DNA of 38,336 bases from a virus. The notes under the pieces were generated by a model. The model was not told where the DNA came from, made no database searches, and saw only the letters and a list, made by a program, of their open reading frames with translations. The stretch lies in the IMG/VR virus record IMGVR_UViG_3300028384_000183, positions 1-38,336 of that record. One strand, written 5' to 3'. Positions 4,584 to 28,997 of the stretch are shown piece after piece. Every line of letters begins with the position of its first letter. The first letter of the stretch is position 1. Both the position numbers and the translations under genes were made by a program.

Positions 4584-5447
4584 AAGTAGGAATGATCGGA
4601 CTAGGACGGATGGGCGAGGGTATGTCCCGCCGTCTCATCAAAGCAGGACATGAAGTTTGGGGATATAGAAACAATACTGCTAAGGCAGAAGAGCAGTATG
4701 AGAAAGGTTACATCAGTGGATATGCCACTTCAATTCTCTCGACGCAGGGCAGAAAGGTTGTCTAAACTGGGCATCCAATATCTTGACTGTGGCACTAGTG
4801 GTGGTGTTTACGGTTTGGAGCGTGGATATTGTCTTATGGTTGGTGGTGCAACTGGTGCAGTATCCGTCTGCGCTCCAATCTTCCGCGCACTCTCTCCTGG
4901 AATTGGCTCCACTAACAGAACTGACCCTTTGAGTCATGAGACCTCTGCTGAACACGGTTGGTTGCATTGTGGTCCTGCTGGTGCAGGTCACTTTGTAAAG
5001 ATGGTCCACAATGGAGTTGAATATGGAATCATGCAAGCATACGCAGAAGGATTTAATATCCTGCATGAAGCAAATGCTGGGTCACACTACGTTAAAGAGG
5101 GCGATGCTGAGGTTGCTCCGATGGAAAATCCGAGAGATTATCAGTATGATATTGATGTTGCTGAGGTGGCTGAGTTATGGCGTCGTGGTTCTGTGGTTGG
5201 GTCTTGGTTACTCGATCTTACCGCTGATGTTCTACGCAGCGATAACCAACTTAGCAAGTTCGATGGGGGAGTATCAGACAGTGGTGAAGGTCGTTGGACT
5301 GTTCATGCTGCTGTGGATCTCGGTGTTCCAGCCCCTGTTATTACTACTGCTCTCTATGAACGTTTCGGATCTAGGAGACTCGGAAAATTTGCTAACCGTG
5401 TCCTCAACGGAATGCGAGCAATGTTCGGAGGACACGAAGTAAGGTGA
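4580..5447 (+). pseudogene. gnd: 6-phosphogluconate dehydrogenase, deleted and frameshifted
   Basis: The start ATG 4580 has a good AGGAG site. The first frame (to a TAA ending at 4765) gives the NADP-binding GLGRMG at about residues 7-12 and a normal opening up to about residue 50 (ISGYATS). From about base 4735 the homology continues in a different frame: RRAERLSKLG, DCGTSGGVYGLERGYCLMVGG, then the catalytic HFVKMVHNGVEY block and a normal C-terminus to 5447. About 50 residues that normally lie between (the VWxMVPxG and IIDGGNS blocks of the Rossmann fold) are absent. Even a ribosomal frameshift would not restore them, so as written no functional enzyme is made. Confidence 0.85.
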
Positions 5448-24084: not shown

Positions 24085-24111
24085 GACCCCTTGGGCTTTG
24101 CCTGAGGGGTC
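24085..24111 (+). terminator. Stem-loop after speD
   Basis: GACCCCTTGGGC-TTT-GCCTGAGGGGTC forms a 12-base stem with two G-T pairs and a three-base loop. The following CTTATACTG is not a T run, so termination may be partial. Confidence 0.55.
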
Positions 24112-24118
24112 TTATACT
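24091..24118 (+). promoter_or_regulatory. Possible early promoter before the VWA protein gene
   Basis: TATACT (24113-24118) is a good -10 box; the best -35 at 16-base spacing is TTGGGC (24091-24096), weak and inside the hairpin. The start ATG follows at 24141. Confidence 0.4.
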
Positions 24119-24140
24119 GTATGCATACAAGACAAAGCAC

Positions 24141-26264
24141 ATGAACATCGAGATCAAAGGTTCCCTTGCCCGTCTGCTTGCCACTGAGAACCTGCTTGTT
24201 GAGCACAAGCAGGTCAAGACTGCATCGTTTGATGTTGAAAAGCGTGTCCTGACTCTTCCTGTCTGGGACAAAGCAAGCAATACTGTTTACAATCTGCTGG
24301 TCGGTCATGAGGTCGGTCATGCTCTCTACACTCCTAACGAAAAACTGGACGATCTGCCCTGTCCTAAGTCTTTTGTGAACGTTACCGAAGACGCTCGCAT
24401 TGAGAAACTGATGAAACGCAAGTACGCTGGTCTTGCTAAGGACTTCTATCAGGGTTATAAAGAACTGAATGCTGAGGATTTCTTCTCTATCAGGGACGAA
24501 AACCTGACCAAGATGCCTTTGATCGATCGTGTGAACCTTCACTTCAAGATCGGAGCATATTCTATGATGCCTTTCGATGCTTCTGAGGTGCCTCTGCGTG
24601 ACGCTGTGGGCGCTGCTGAGACATTTGAGGAAGCAATCGACGCTGCCAATGCTATTTTTACCTTCATGAAGGAAGAACGTGAGAAAAATAAGCAAGATGC
24701 ACCTGCCTCTCAGCAAGATGGTCAAGGTGGAGAGACTGAGGACAAGGAATGGTTCACTGATGATGATCCTATGGACCGCCCTGCCAAGAAACATGATGAT
24801 GCAGACCTAGATACTCCCTCCTATGAGACGGAAGATATTGATGACTGGGATGAACCTGGGGTCCAAGAGGGTTATGAAGAACCTTCTATCGATACAGTTA
24901 AGTCTCAGGAGTCCTTCGATAGTGCTTCTCAGTCTCTGATTGATAAGTACGCAGACGTGATCACCTATGTGGACTTCCCCAAGATCAATTTCAACAAAAT
25001 TATTGTTGATGCTGACACTGTATGGGCAGATGCTGTGGATGATTGGAGCACTAAGTACACTGAGGAAAGTCACCCCAATGCATTTGAAGAAACTGATCGA
25101 GACTTTCGAGAGTTTTGCAACAAAACTACCAAAGAAGTCAATTATTTGATCAAAGAGTTCGAGTGTCGTAAGTCTGCAACTGCACATGCTCGGTCTACTA
25201 CTGCCCGAACTGGTGTTCTTGACCTCAGCAAACTGCATACTTACAAGTACAATGATGATATCTTCCAGAAAGTCACTCGCACTTCCGAAGGTAAGAACCA
25301 TGGCATGATTTTTCTGCTTGATTGGTCTGGTTCTATGTGTGATGACATCTTTGATACTGTGAAACAGGTCATCAATCTTGCTCAGTTCTGTAAAAAGGTT
25401 GGTATTCCCTTCGATGTGTACTCTTTTGTTGTTGATGGTGGTATGTCCATCCTTAATGGTGATGCACCTGGTGATTGGGGAGATGTTTCTAGCAACAAAC
25501 CTGGTGAGTTTTACTTCGATCCACGTTTCAAACTAGTCAATTTGCTCACCAGCAGGGTTAATCAGAAGACTTTTACTGAGCACTGCAAATATCTCTATCG
25601 TACTGCTCGTTATTATGGTCGTCGTCACGTCTATGCCTTCACCCCTCAACCTCCTCGCTTCATGGGTCTTGGTGGCACTCCTCTGAATGAAGCACTGGTG
25701 GTTATGGAGTCCTACCTGGGTAAATGGCAGCGTCAGAACAACGTTGAGAAGTGTCATCTGATGGTTCTTACCGATGGTGAGGCGCAACAGTCTGCTATTT
25801 GTCGTGAAAGTAAACTGGAAGAATACACTATCCTTCCTAGTTACTACATTGACAGTCTGGTTATTCGTCGCAAAGGTCGTTATCAGAAAGCATGTCATAA
25901 CGGGATGTCAGAACTGACCAAACGACTGGTCAATGTGCTTCGTGAAGCATATCCTGAGTCCAGTATCCTTAGTTTTCGACTGACTGGGGGTGTTCGTGGT
26001 CTTAATAACTTCCTGTATACTCTTGGAGTTCTTGATCATGCAAAATATGACAAGGCATATCGTAAAGACAAGTCTATTATTGTTACTGATTCTCCTTACA
26101 CCGAATTGTATGTGATCCATTCCAATTCTTTGAACAATGAAACTGAGATGCAAGTTGCTGAGGATGCTACAAAAGCACAAATCAAGTCTGCTTTTGTCAA
26201 GTCTTTGAAGTCTAAGGGTCTGAACCGCAAGATGCTCTCTGCTTTCGTTGGACAGATCGCATAG
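24141..26264 (+). CDS. Metalloprotease-like and VWA-domain protein (CobT-like)
   Basis: 707 residues. The N-terminal part has a zinc-peptidase helix HEVGH (56-60) followed by NVTEDARIEKL (80-90), whose Glu could be the third ligand. The middle (about 195-265) is acidic and low-complexity. The C-terminal part is a von Willebrand A domain with the MIDAS DWSGSM (Asp394, Ser396, Ser398), a later GTPL and the LTDGE strand. VWA proteins of this build act with MoxR AAA+ ATPases, and the next gene is one. CobT (cobaltochelatase) is the closest paired system, but the HExxH motif suggests proteolysis or protein remodelling. It appears intact. Confidence 0.8.
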   Translation: MNIEIKGSLARLLATENLLVEHKQVKTASFDVEKRVLTLPVWDKASNTVYNLLVGHEVGHALYTPNEKLDDLPCPKSFVNVTEDARIEKLMKRKYAGLAKDFYQGYKELNAEDFFSIRDENLTKMPLIDRVNLHFKIGAYSMMPFDASEVPLRDAVGAAETFEEAIDAANAIFTFMKEEREKNKQDAPASQQDGQGGETEDKEWFTDDDPMDRPAKKHDDADLDTPSYETEDIDDWDEPGVQEGYEEPSIDTVKSQESFDSASQSLIDKYADVITYVDFPKINFNKIIVDADTVWADAVDDWSTKYTEESHPNAFEETDRDFREFCNKTTKEVNYLIKEFECRKSATAHARSTTARTGVLDLSKLHTYKYNDDIFQKVTRTSEGKNHGMIFLLDWSGSMCDDIFDTVKQVINLAQFCKKVGIPFDVYSFVVDGGMSILNGDAPGDWGDVSSNKPGEFYFDPRFKLVNLLTSRVNQKTFTEHCKYLYRTARYYGRRHVYAFTPQPPRFMGLGGTPLNEALVVMESYLGKWQRQNNVEKCHLMVLTDGEAQQSAICRESKLEEYTILPSYYIDSLVIRRKGRYQKACHNGMSELTKRLVNVLREAYPESSILSFRLTGGVRGLNNFLYTLGVLDHAKYDKAYRKDKSIIVTDSPYTELYVIHSNSLNNETEMQVAEDATKAQIKSAFVKSLKSKGLNRKMLSAFVGQIA

Positions 26265-26278
26265 TGTCCACTCTGCCC

Positions 26279-26306
26279 CTGACACTACCCCACTCTGCTC
26301 TATACT
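26279..26306 (+). promoter_or_regulatory. Early promoter before cobS-like gene
   Basis: CTGACA (26279-26284), 16-base spacer, TATACT (26301-26306); the start ATG is at 26328. Five of six bases match in each box. It allows the ATPase to be expressed separately from its VWA partner. Confidence 0.55.
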
Positions 26307-26327
26307 TAATTCATACGCAACCAACCA

Positions 26328-27410
26328 ATGCCTTTCGCTCCTGCAAACGTGACTACCGAAGACCTGATTACTTTTTTGACCAGCACCCACGGCGAGCAAG
26401 TCGGCACTGCACAACTGGTTTCTGCCTCTGATCACTTTGGTTGTTCTCTGGCAACCATCAAGAAACGTCTTGATGGATATAAAGCAGGTCGTGGCAAGTG
26501 GAATCTGACCCTTGTCGAACAACTTGAAGACACTTATACTGCTCCTGCTGCTATTAAGAACTTGGTTCCTGCTATTGACTCTAACTATGTTCCTTTTGGT
26601 AACTTCCGTGACGTAAAGAAAGTCATCAAATCTGGTATTTTCTACCCTATGTTCATCACGGGTCTCTCTGGCAACGGTAAGACCTTCGGTGTTGAGCAAG
26701 CATGTGCTTCTCTTGGTCGTGAACTTATCCGTGTAAACATTACCGTTGAAACTGATGAAGATGATCTTATTGGCGGTTTCCGCCTTGTTGATGGCAACAC
26801 CGTCTGGCACAATGGCCCAGTCATCGAGGCACTCGAACGAGGATCTGTACTGCTCCTTGATGAAATCGACCTCGCTAGTAACAAAATTCTCTGTCTCCAA
26901 TCTATCCTTGAAGGGAAAGGAGTTTACCTTAAAAAGATTGGACGATGGGTTTCTCCTGCAAGTGGATTCAACGTCATCGCCACAGCCAACACTAAGGGTA
27001 AAGGTAGTGACGACGGACGATTCGTTGGAACTAATGTGCTCAACGAAGCGTTCCTAGAACGATTCCCTCTGACCTTCGAGCAAGAGTATCCTTCTGCTAG
27101 TATTGAGGCAAAGATGCTCAACAATTACTGCTCTGAGTTGAATTGCTGCGACGACAAGTTTATCTCTAACCTGGTTTCATGGGCAGAGATCATTCGTAAG
27201 ACGTTCAAAGACGGTGGTATTGATGAGGTTATCTCTACTCGTCGTCTTGTTCATGTCATTCGTGCTTTTGCTATCTTCAACGATCGCTTGAAGGCAATCA
27301 AGATGTGTCTGAATCGTTTCGATGATGAAACCAAAGAAGCATTCCTTGAACTGTATTCCAAGATCGATGCTGATGTTGACCTTGATGACTCTAATCTTCT
27401 GAAAGACTGA
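26328..27410 (+). CDS. cobS: MoxR-type AAA+ ATPase (cyanophage CobS)
   Basis: 360 residues. Walker A GLSGNGKT (112-119), Walker B LLLDEID (175-181), sensor-like VIATANTKGKGSDDGRFVG, and the second-region Arg in ERFPLTFEQEYPS. The N-terminal 80 residues form a small helical domain (SASDHFGCSLATIKKRLDG, helix-turn-helix-like). Phage homologues are annotated as CobS, the ATPase of the aerobic cobalt chelatase, but cobN is not seen in the window; the nearby VWA/protease gene is the obvious partner. A MoxR-VWA chaperone role is the broader alternative. Confidence 0.85.
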   Translation: MPFAPANVTTEDLITFLTSTHGEQVGTAQLVSASDHFGCSLATIKKRLDGYKAGRGKWNLTLVEQLEDTYTAPAAIKNLVPAIDSNYVPFGNFRDVKKVIKSGIFYPMFITGLSGNGKTFGVEQACASLGRELIRVNITVETDEDDLIGGFRLVDGNTVWHNGPVIEALERGSVLLLDEIDLASNKILCLQSILEGKGVYLKKIGRWVSPASGFNVIATANTKGKGSDDGRFVGTNVLNEAFLERFPLTFEQEYPSASIEAKMLNNYCSELNCCDDKFISNLVSWAEIIRKTFKDGGIDEVISTRRLVHVIRAFAIFNDRLKAIKMCLNRFDDETKEAFLELYSKIDADVDLDDSNLLKD

Positions 27411-27988
27411 TGCTTTACCGTACTAAAATTCTAGATGAAAAGGGCATCAAACATGCCCTTTCTTATACTGATAGACACCTTGGTCTAGCGGAGACTCCCT
27501 ATAAACATTGCCAAGAAATCAAAGGTTGGGGAATGTCTTATGGTGCTTTCCATGCTGAGTGGTTAGATGAGCAGATTCTGATGTCAAACCATTCTAATTT
27601 GGTTATGACTTCTGGTCGTACTGGGTACACATACAAAGAGTATGGTACACTTGATAGATATGACTGGCATTCAGATGAAGTAACTTCTTCTGATGGACTC
27701 CGACTGGATGTATCTACCACATTATTTCTGACTGAACCAGACACCTATCAGGGTGGTGAGTTGGAGTTGCGTTTTGGTGACTTTTCTATTAGTATAAAGT
27801 TGCCTGCTGGGTATGCTATTATGTACCCTACTGGTCTGATTCATAGAGTCCGCCCAGTTGTCTCAGGTTCTCGCAAGGTTATTCACTGGTGGGATCAATC
27901 CAACGTACAGAATGCATTCTTGCGTGATGCTATCAACGGTGTTGATGGTAATGATCTGTATGTTTCTCAACTTGAACGTTTCTGTTAA
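27410..27988 (+). CDS. 2OG-Fe(II) oxygenase, PKHD/PiuC-like
   Basis: 192 residues. Dioxygenase using 2-oxoglutarate, O2 and Fe(II). Iron ligands H87-x-D89 (DWHSDE) and His145 (LIHRVRPV); Arg155 (GSRKV) would bind 2-oxoglutarate; FLTEPDTYQGGELEL (106-120) is the family signature. It resembles PKHD-type hydroxylases such as PiuC. Target unknown; protein or DNA modification is possible. ATG 27410 overlaps the cobS stop (TGATG). Confidence 0.85.
   Translation: MLYRTKILDEKGIKHALSYTDRHLGLAETPYKHCQEIKGWGMSYGAFHAEWLDEQILMSNHSNLVMTSGRTGYTYKEYGTLDRYDWHSDEVTSSDGLRLDVSTTLFLTEPDTYQGGELELRFGDFSISIKLPAGYAIMYPTGLIHRVRPVVSGSRKVIHWWDQSNVQNAFLRDAINGVDGNDLYVSQLERFC
27439..27461 (+). terminator. Intragenic stem-loop near the start of the oxygenase gene
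   Basis: AAAGGGCAT-CAAAC-ATGCCCTTT is a perfect nine-base stem with a five-base loop, 29 bases after the oxygenase ATG, followed by CTTATACTG as after the speD hairpin. It could attenuate transcription or translation. It lies inside codons 10-18, so chance is possible but the perfect stem is notable. Confidence 0.4.
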
Positions 27989-27990
27989 TT

Positions 27991-28275
27991 ATGAACAAAT
28001 ACAATGAGGAGCAAATCCTCAAAGAACTGAAAGAGTATATCACTTCCACTTACAATCAGCATTATTCTAATGATGGTTTTCAAACTCTGGATTTGATTGA
28101 GTCTTGTGGAGATGGTGAAGCGTTTTGTCGCAGCAATATCTTGAAGTATGCTACTCGCTATGATCGAAAGGGAACTGCTAGACGTGACATCATGAAGGTG
28201 CTACACTATGCTGTACTCCTGATGCACTTCAATGACAAAAACTCTTACCCTATCGAAGAATATCTTAATCGATGA
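27991..28275 (+). CDS. DUF3310-like protein
   Basis: 94 residues. Pattern YSNDGFQTLDLIESCGDGEAFCRSNILKYATRYDRKGTARRDIMKVLHYAVLLMHF matches the phage DUF3310 (SaV-like) family. Exact function unknown; nucleotide-metabolism roles have been suggested for the family. It overlaps the gp45 ATG (ATGA). Confidence 0.8.
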   Translation: MNKYNEEQILKELKEYITSTYNQHYSNDGFQTLDLIESCGDGEAFCRSNILKYATRYDRKGTARRDIMKVLHYAVLLMHFNDKNSYPIEEYLNR

Positions 28276-28997
28276 AATTTACTGAAACTCAACACGATGT
28301 TTTGAAAATCTTTCAATACATCAACCCTTCGATCTTGTTCAAACCTGGCAAGAAAGTTGCCACGATCTCTAACAACAAGAACATCATGGGTGTTTGCCAC
28401 TTCCGTGATCTGACTATTCCTGTTGAGGCACCCATCTATGACCTGGGTGTGTTCCAAACCACCGCTCTGATGCTTGGTGATACTGCTGACAAATTCTCTT
28501 GTGAAGTTGACTTCCAAGATAACTTTGTTCACTTGCGTCGTGGTCAAAGTCGCATGAAGTATCACTATGCTGCTAAGACCATGATCACGACTCCTCCTGA
28601 AAAGATCGTTGATCTTGGTGAACCTGTTCAGCGTCTGCGTATCCAGTATTCTGACTTGTCTAAGATGTTCTCTGCATCTGGTTTATATGCTCTGCCTGAT
28701 ATTTGCTTCACTGCACATGATGGCAAACTGGAAGCAGTCGTGACTGACAAGCGTAACTCTTCTTCTAATGTGTTCGCTATCGATCTGGGCGAAACCGAGA
28801 AAGAGTTCTGCTTCTGTGTTAAGGCAGAGAACTTCAAGGCAGCACAACCGAGTTTCTCTCGCTGCATTGAGTCCTATGACATCGAACTATATAGTCAAAA
28901 GGTTGCTAAACTGTTCGCAAACTTTAATGAGAGTTCCTCTCGTGAAGTTGAATCTCTCGAACTGATGATCGCTCTGGAACCCGACTCCGATGCCTAA
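28272..28997 (+). CDS. gp45: Sliding clamp
   Basis: 241 residues (T4 gp45 228). Ring-shaped processivity clamp for the polymerase and activator of late transcription through gp55/gp33. The layout matches T4: TQHDVLKIFQYINPSILFKPG, VEAPIYDLGVFQTTALML, PPEKIVDLGEP, then VTDKRNSSSNVFAIDLGE, FCVKAENFKAAQPSFSR, and the terminal VESLELMIALEPDSDA. It appears complete. The overlaps with both neighbours suggest one replication operon. Confidence 0.92.
   Translation: MKFTETQHDVLKIFQYINPSILFKPGKKVATISNNKNIMGVCHFRDLTIPVEAPIYDLGVFQTTALMLGDTADKFSCEVDFQDNFVHLRRGQSRMKYHYAAKTMITTPPEKIVDLGEPVQRLRIQYSDLSKMFSASGLYALPDICFTAHDGKLEAVVTDKRNSSSNVFAIDLGETEKEFCFCVKAENFKAAQPSFSRCIESYDIELYSQKVAKLFANFNESSSREVESLELMIALEPDSDA

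Follow-up and report, generated by a model that had tools for sequence, protein, structure and literature searches.

A conserved ATPase and peptidase-VWA gene pair of T4-like marine phages, probably encoding a metalloprotease/chaperone

Two adjacent genes of a T4-like cyanophage, encoding a CobS-like MoxR ATPase and a protein with an N-terminal peptidase domain and a C-terminal VWA domain, constitute a real, conserved pair, the products of which probably act as a two-component ATP-driven metalloprotease/chaperone and not as a cobalt chelatase. This function is better supported than cobalt chelation because the zincin site is invariant, the constraint on the two domains is opposite to that of CobT and the pair is carried by SAR11 phages.

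Locus, gene pairing and promoter elements

The window, the whole analysed stretch of 38,336 nucleotides, is derived from a Synechococcus-type T4-like cyanophage, the gp23 of which matches that of S-WAM1 at 95.8%. Three open reading frames were confirmed, all on the plus strand: a peptidase-VWA protein of CobT-like architecture (24141–26264, 707 aa; phrog_459 ‘peptidase’, E 6e-239), a CobS-like MoxR-clade AAA+ ATPase (26328–27410, 360 aa; AAA_5, 5e-18; CbbQ_C, 4e-6; phrog_249, 5e-133) and a PKHD-type 2OG-Fe(II) oxygenase (27410–27988, 192 aa; PF13640, 3.5e-10), the latter being a neighbour outside the machine. Both genes of the pair lie between gp46 and gp45, in the replication block. As in the first-pass annotation, no genes for CobN or other cob genes were found among the scanned open reading frames of the window, which is a 38-kb fragment.

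The peptidase-VWA protein was found near full length in 460 phage records, counted where a single place covered at least 80% of the protein, and the ATPase in 461 records, with the counts for the main organism names equal to those of the peptidase. The ATPase gene lies downstream of the peptidase-VWA gene, within 2.4 kb, in all 90 phage loci (90/90). The pair is carried by nearly all T4-like ocean cyanophages and is also present in the SAR11 phages Mosig and HTVC008M. Reported exceptions with respect to cobS are S-CREM2, S-H34, S-N03 and S-B68, which are described as devoid of it.

The oxygenase gene starts inside the stop codon of cobS (TGATG at 27408–27412), and both this coupling and the PKHD-type assignment of the first-pass annotation were reproduced. 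Its proposal that the three genes form one system did not survive the co-occurrence check on the 90 loci: the ATPase and the peptidase-VWA protein remain together throughout, while the oxygenase is restricted to one small clade. At this position it is present only in S-WAM1, P-RSM6 and close metagenomic relatives of the window, and is missing in S-SZBM1, Syn19, S-ShM2, ACG-2014f, P-HM1 and nearly all other loci, so that oxidative modification as a part of the system is unsupported. A three-gene system, in which the oxygenase oxidatively marks a target that is then cleaved, is very improbable in view of this distribution and of the abundance of 2OG oxygenases in cyanophages, 24 of which are known in S-SCSM1 (PMC10665884), although the TGATG coupling and the adjacency retained in S-WAM1 and P-RSM6 speak for it. 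The oxygenase was ruled out as a third component by its distribution and is an unrelated local neighbour. Accordingly, of the chaperone/protease machine suggested by the first-pass annotation, the two-gene core was retained on the zincin site, MIDAS, fold, co-occurrence, inverted constraint and SAR11 phages, and the hydroxylase part was dropped.

Upstream of the peptidase-VWA gene, a –10-like element (TATACTGTATGCATAC, 24113–24128, plus strand) follows a hairpin (24085–24111), and a matching element (TATACTTAATTCATAC, 26301–26316, plus strand) precedes the ATPase gene. The motif TATA[AC]T precedes the peptidase-VWA gene in 57/88 loci versus 5.0 in shuffles, and the element of the ATPase gene is present in 60/71 loci versus 4.6. 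Both elements are of the early/middle type; the T4-late promoter TATAAATA was detected upstream of the genes of the pair in 0 loci. The consulted papers on cyanophage expression contained no timing for these genes.

Iyer et al. 2021 (PMC7824862) proposed, by inference, a virion-assembly role with processing of structural proteins for the pair of MoxR ATPase and vWA protein with an N-terminal metallopeptidase in jumbo phages of group 2.2, which resembles the present pair by description; a MoxR-vWA pair lacking the peptidase is cited there in connection with how the Acidianus two-tailed virus assembles its tails. Gene adjacency and N-terminal fusion, which define the jumbo-phage pair, are both found here; the present pair differs in belonging to cyanophages and SAR11 phages and in its location in the replication block. 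A chaperone for virion assembly that also processes structural proteins of the phage by peptidolysis would be a sub-case of the metalloprotease/chaperone with the substrate fixed, and is rather unlikely given the replication-block position, the early/middle-type –10 elements, the lack of T4-late promoters and the S77 prohead protease encoded by the same phage (13698–14345). In T4, however, chaperones for assembly can be encoded by early genes, which weakens the promoter argument against virion assembly.

Domain organization of the two proteins

The N-terminal domain of the peptidase-VWA protein (residues 1–186, 24141–24698) is predicted to be a gluzincin-like zincin (AF2 mean pLDDT 91). It contains HEVGH (residues 56–60, 24306–24320), with two His as putative ligands and Glu57 as the putative catalytic residue, and NVTEDAR (residues 80–86, 24378–24398). 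H56, E57 and H60 are conserved in 91/91 members covering the site, as well as in 31/31 and 33/33 members of wider sets, and N80, E83, D84 and R86 are invariant in the 91 members and the wider sets, down to ~29% identity. The combination of HExxH with a conserved downstream Glu (H56, E57, H60 and E83 all invariant) corresponds to the gluzincin-type sequence, E83 being probably the third zinc ligand. Halovirus and plasmid relatives also contain the NVTEDAR-type motif, with D in place of E in one of them, and the protein of halovirus HVTV-1 carries the peptidase motif as well.

The 17 best structural matches of the N-domain model are all zinc-metallopeptidase-type folds, the top ones being ZMPSTE24, selecase, ArdC and BlaR1, but the matches are weak (Z 3.7–6.0, Foldseek E >0.1). 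The search of PDB sequences with the phage profile gave only low-complexity matches. CobT structures are absent from the fold-library matches, an absence that carries no weight.

The zincin domain is followed by an acidic linker, predicted to be disordered (residues 187–248, 24699–24884; pLDDT <50), and this acidic character is shared by the relatives from phages and plasmids and by CobT. The VWA domain (residues 385–707, 25293–26261), assigned by VIA-align fold matches, contains MIDAS DWSGSM (residues 394–399, 25320–25337) with T513 (25677–25679) and D545 (25773–25775); D394, S396, S398, T513 and D545 are conserved in 92/92 members. The presence of HEVGH and a VWA MIDAS in one protein, reported by the first-pass annotation, was thus seen at residues 56–60 and at 394–398, T513 and D545, and these are not chance matches because both motifs are invariant in the members covering them.

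With the C-terminal half as the VIA-align query (model residues ~302–707), the midasin MIDAS domain was matched at Z 17.6 (rmsd 2.9, 217 aligned) and the NorD VWA at Z 15.7 (rmsd 5.3, 234 aligned); generic VWAs scored lower, at Z 12–13. On these model comparisons, the phage VWA appears closest to the VWAs that partner MoxR ATPases, namely midasin and NorD; a complete MIDAS, a midasin/NorD-like fold and an adjoining MoxR gene, characteristic of such partners, are all present.

The ATPase contains Walker A GLSGNGKT (residues 112–119, 26661–26684), the columns of which are mostly invariant among 17 ATPases, and Walker B LLLDEID (residues 175–181, 26850–26870), with L175–E179 and D181 as invariant columns. 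It matches PF07728 at 65.9 bits (cut-off 22), and PF08406 is also above the cut-off. Its PDB relatives are midasin, CobS, CbbQ and NorQ; the AAA_5 match, both Walker motifs and these MoxR-type relatives place it in the MoxR clade of AAA+ ATPases.

NorQ/NorD resemble the phage pair as a MoxR ATPase with a MIDAS VWA partner, and differ in that NorQD serves iron insertion into NO reductase (PMC9976466); the consulted passages mention no zincin motif in NorD. The nearest structural relatives, NorQ/NorD and midasin, need no protease, and the N-domain of CobT serves a motor while devoid of HExxH, which would suit a pseudo-protease with zinc in a structural role only and a purely remodelling, NorQD-like chaperone. 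This is unlikely, since not only the His ligands but also the catalytic Glu57 is invariant in all phage members and also retained in the relatives from haloviruses and plasmids.

In the proposed metalloprotease/chaperone, the MoxR ATPase would assemble as a ring, onto which the VWA domain may dock, gripping the target via the MIDAS metal. ATP hydrolysis would then pull or remodel the target, and the tethered zincin would cut it, H56, H60 and probably E83 serving as zinc ligands and E57 as the catalytic base. The conserved zincin may represent a constant cutter, and the faster-diverging VWA may be responsible for target recognition. Most likely, the machine would process or remodel a protein of the phage or of the host in early-to-middle infection.

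Comparison with cobaltochelatase CobS/CobT

According to Liu et al. 2021 (PMC8651126) and earlier literature on auxiliary metabolic genes, the pair belongs to cobalt chelation: phage CobS/CobT would serve as the motor of a chelatase with host CobN, raising cobalamin production. In cobaltochelatase (TIGR01650, TIGR01651, PF06213, PF11775) the ATPase is likewise a relative of the phage one, and CobT shares with the phage protein the succession of N-domain, acidic linker, helical stretch and VWA. CobT differs in the absence of HExxH, found in 0/38 chromosomal CobTs, and in the distribution of conservation. Mean identity in phages is 59.6% for the N-domain versus 40.8% for the VWA; in CobT it is 40.1% versus 81.0%. 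Judged by these identities, domain constraint appears inverted, with the zincin conserved in phages and, in CobT, the VWA conserved and the N-domain drifting. Over close pairs dN/dS is 0.10 and 0.11 for the two domains, without separation; therefore, the difference in constraint is visible only at depth.

The VWA protein of the window did not match TIGR01651, PF06213 or PF11775 at the curated cut-offs. Some phage VWA proteins match PF06213/TIGR01651 weakly, the best E-values of 31 phage members versus the CobT profiles being 0.012–0.02, all below the curated cut-offs. The ATPase scores 72 bits versus TIGR01650, far under the CobS equivalog cut-off of 558.55. Profile–profile comparison of the phage protein with CobT gave a weak match (hhalign probability 4%), and CobT N-domains were not significantly found in the phage HMM search. 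The link between the phage family and CobT is provided by a Hydrogenophaga plasmid protein, which scores above the CobT cut-off and is also matched by the phage N-domain HMM. By sequence comparison, the phage proteins appear to be distant relatives of CobT/CobS.

Two PF02514 genes of CobN/ChlH type were found in a Prochlorococcus genome (n=1), and CobT in 0/21 genomes of one Prochlorococcus family. Hijacking of CobN is conceivable in cyanobacteria because the hosts have CobN/ChlH-type proteins. In sampled genomes, CobT occurs without CobN in 7/39, and also in the Caulobacter control; therefore, the presence of CobT does not by itself imply chelation, even in cells. Nonlabens, considered as a CobN-free host, was dropped: its phage contig is possibly a contaminant because a psbA-type gene is present in the same assembly.

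The distant homology, CobS among the PDB relatives of the ATPase, the weak CobT matches, the similar domain order and the host PF02514 genes in a family devoid of CobT are consistent with a chelatase motor. Against it stand the scores far from the CobS and CobT cut-offs, the zincin site invariant although CobT works without HExxH, the VWA as the best-conserved part of CobT but the less conserved part in phages, the presence of the pair in phages of SAR11, which are B12 auxotrophs (PMC9296465), and cellular CobT itself occurring without CobN. Taken together, cobalt chelation is improbable for the phage pair.

Related mobile-element systems and biological meaning

Both readings were already published, namely, cobST by Liu et al. 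2021 and the jumbo-phage MoxR and metallopeptidase-vWA pair by Iyer et al. 2021; new here are the conservation tests discriminating between the chelatase and metallopeptidase readings. The viral cobST cluster of haloarchaeal tailed viruses and cyanophages comprises the same genes, named core genes in cyanophages and described as ‘mistakenly annotated as peptidase’ (PMC8651126). In contrast, the peptidase motif found here is real, being invariant in the cyanophage family and present in HVTV-1.

Conjugative plasmids of Shewanella and Hydrogenophaga (loci L154 and L153) contain a cassette of MoxR, DUF3150 and HExxH-VWA genes. Similar to the phage protein, its VWA protein has HExxH followed by N..[ED]D, and in L154 a MoxR-like AAA gene is close by; the cassette differs in the additional DUF3150 gene, and the Hydrogenophaga stretch shows no AAA gene. 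Tentatively, an ATP-driven MoxR and zincin-VWA protease may be common to T4-like marine phages, haloarchaeal tailed viruses and conjugative plasmids, with the chromosomal CobT of vitamin B12 synthesis as a relative from which the protease site has disappeared; this would offer a route for a chelatase subunit arising from a protease.

In ocean virology, cobS is classed among the auxiliary metabolic genes for B12, and it belongs to the core genes of T4-like cyanophages (PMC3037559, PMC10665884). If the pair acts as a protease/chaperone, this label and the conclusions built on it would be wrong, and two core genes would acquire a testable function. Should the shared-protease reading be true, the cyanophage core gene cobS would belong to a protein-processing machine.

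Gene content and distribution of the pair

The contig is a fragment of a T4-like cyanophage; its major head protein has 95.8% identity to that of Synechococcus phage S-WAM1, and genes of plastoquinol terminal oxidase, glucose-6-phosphate dehydrogenase, Hsp20, and T4-type replication and head proteins are also present. The family match of the 6-phosphogluconate dehydrogenase ORF (4650–5447) starts at profile position 105, so its N-terminal part is absent or lies in another frame; a frameshift or assembly error is possible. Sliding clamp gp45 (28272–28997) shows 46% identity to that of S-WAM1, and the adjoining gp55, gp47, gp46 and gp44 show 73–91%.

Three genes are present as described in the first-pass annotation: 24141–26264, encoding a 707-aa peptidase–VWA protein (PHROG 459, ‘peptidase’), 26328–27410, encoding a CobS-like ATPase (PHROG 249, ‘porphyrin biosynthesis’), and 27410–27988, encoding a PKHD-type 2OG-Fe(II) oxygenase, with TGATG linking the second to the third. 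Of 50,697 phage records, 463 contain the peptidase–VWA protein (near-full length in 460) and 461 the near-full-length ATPase; counts per organism name match in the main groups (Synechococcus 365, Cyanophage 61, Prochlorococcus 24). The proposed co-occurrence was upheld for these two genes: the ATPase gene lies downstream in 90 of 90 loci inspected, with a gap of at most 150 bp in 63 and 2.4 kb at maximum. They form a genuine pair, as judged by agreement of counts and sampled loci, not record by record. The oxygenase is clade-limited there, a near-full-length relative occupying this position only in S-WAM1, P-RSM6 and close metagenomic relatives; in other phages the pair is followed directly by the gene preceding gp45 (DUF3310-type in the window, 27991–28275). 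This distribution argues strongly against the oxygenase being a third component of one machine.

In phage S-SKS1 (L008, 5001–7055), the peptidase–VWA stretch contains an in-frame stop, either a sequencing error or decay, and no gene is annotated there. The 17 genome_contigs matches (L092–L108) all fall on contigs assigned to taxonomically varied sources (MAGs, a single cell and one isolate), and several appear to be phage contigs placed in the bin of a different organism.

The element TATA[AC]T was found upstream of the peptidase–VWA gene in 57/88 loci and of the ATPase gene in 60/71 (about 5 expected from shuffles), while a T4 late promoter was found upstream of either gene in none of the loci examined, which suggests that the pair may be expressed early or middle. 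A common element, TATACT..AT.CATAC, precedes both genes (24113–24128, 26301–26316) and recurs 5' of the relatives’ genes.

VWA domain and probable zincin domain

Residues H56, E57, H60, N80, E83, D84 and R86 do not vary among the 91 members spanning the site or in sets down to 29% identity; the HEVGH zinc-peptidase motif noted earlier is thus genuine. The N-domain was predicted with pLDDT 91, and the 17 structures that it resembles most all have folds of the zinc-metallopeptidase type (ZMPSTE24, selecase, ArdC, BlaR1, IrrE, Wss1), although none has Z above 6.0. The VWA domain in the same protein was likewise confirmed, its MIDAS residues being invariant in phage members; its fold is nearest to the VWAs of midasin (Z 17.6) and NorD (Z 15.7), both linked to MoxR-type ATPases.

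Comparison with CobS and CobT

With 72 bits, the ATPase lies far below the CobS cut-off of 558.55. The peptidase–VWA protein falls below every CobT cut-off; by the usual criteria, it is not CobT. Compared directly with CobT, it gives a weak match. HExxH was found in 0/38 chromosomal CobTs. Mean identity in phages is 59.6% for the N-domain and 40.8% for VWA (N higher in 97% of 4005 pairs), whereas in CobT it is 40.1% and 81.0% (N higher in 0/703), so that the families show opposite domain constraint, in samples differing in taxonomic depth. Disjoint pairs point in the same direction (N higher in 45/45 phage pairs below 70% identity, 0/19 CobT pairs). Short-distance dN/dS of the two domains does not differ (0.10 and 0.11), and the contrast therefore concerns deep divergence only.

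HECGH and NCLEDPRVE are present in a Hydrogenophaga plasmid protein that both exceeds the PF06213 cut-off (27.7 versus 26.1 bits) and is recognised by the profile of the phage N-domain (E 1.4e-6). MHECGH and NAAEDGAIE occur in the HVTV-1 halovirus protein, which belongs to a type named CobT; a protein of a Shewanella plasmid contains DHELGH and NALDD, and its gene adjoins DUF3150 and AAA ATPase genes. In the alignment, CobT EQARVE falls on the E83 region and HExxH is gone. These plasmid and halovirus proteins and this alignment make it plausible that CobT is related and may have lost the protease site.

Both plasmids (Hydrogenophaga L153, 5849–9196; Shewanella L154, 2926–7684) carry DUF3150 and HExxH–VWA genes, L154 also a MoxR-like AAA gene. 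Among plasmids, 1102 records contain relatives of the VWA protein; most of these records are typed as conjugative.

Possible role of the pair

Liu et al. (PMC8651126) named the cyanophage pair cobST, called the ‘peptidase’ label mistaken and proposed that it hijacks host CobN, i.e., a cobalamin role. Two CobN/ChlH-type genes in one Prochlorococcus genome, and the absence of CobT from that genome’s family, agree with this proposal. However, the pair is also present in Mosig and HTVC008M, phages of SAR11, which is reported to be B12 auxotrophic (PMC9296465), and 7/39 sampled genomes, which may be incomplete, have CobT but no CobN/ChlH-type gene, as does the Caulobacter control. The genomes with CobT and no PF02514 (CobN/ChlH) match are G035, G043, G102, G105, G142, G150, G170 and the Caulobacter control, suggesting that cellular CobST may have another role. 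Iyer et al. (PMC7824862) described a MoxR and metallopeptidase–vWA pair in jumbo phages and proposed a function in virion assembly, but the window phage encodes a separate S77 prohead protease.

A MoxR-driven metalloprotease/chaperone is, with moderate confidence, the best reading of the pair. Published work already describes the pair; new here are tests whose outcomes support the protease over the chelatase reading, and the intact zincin sites sighted in halovirus and plasmid relatives.
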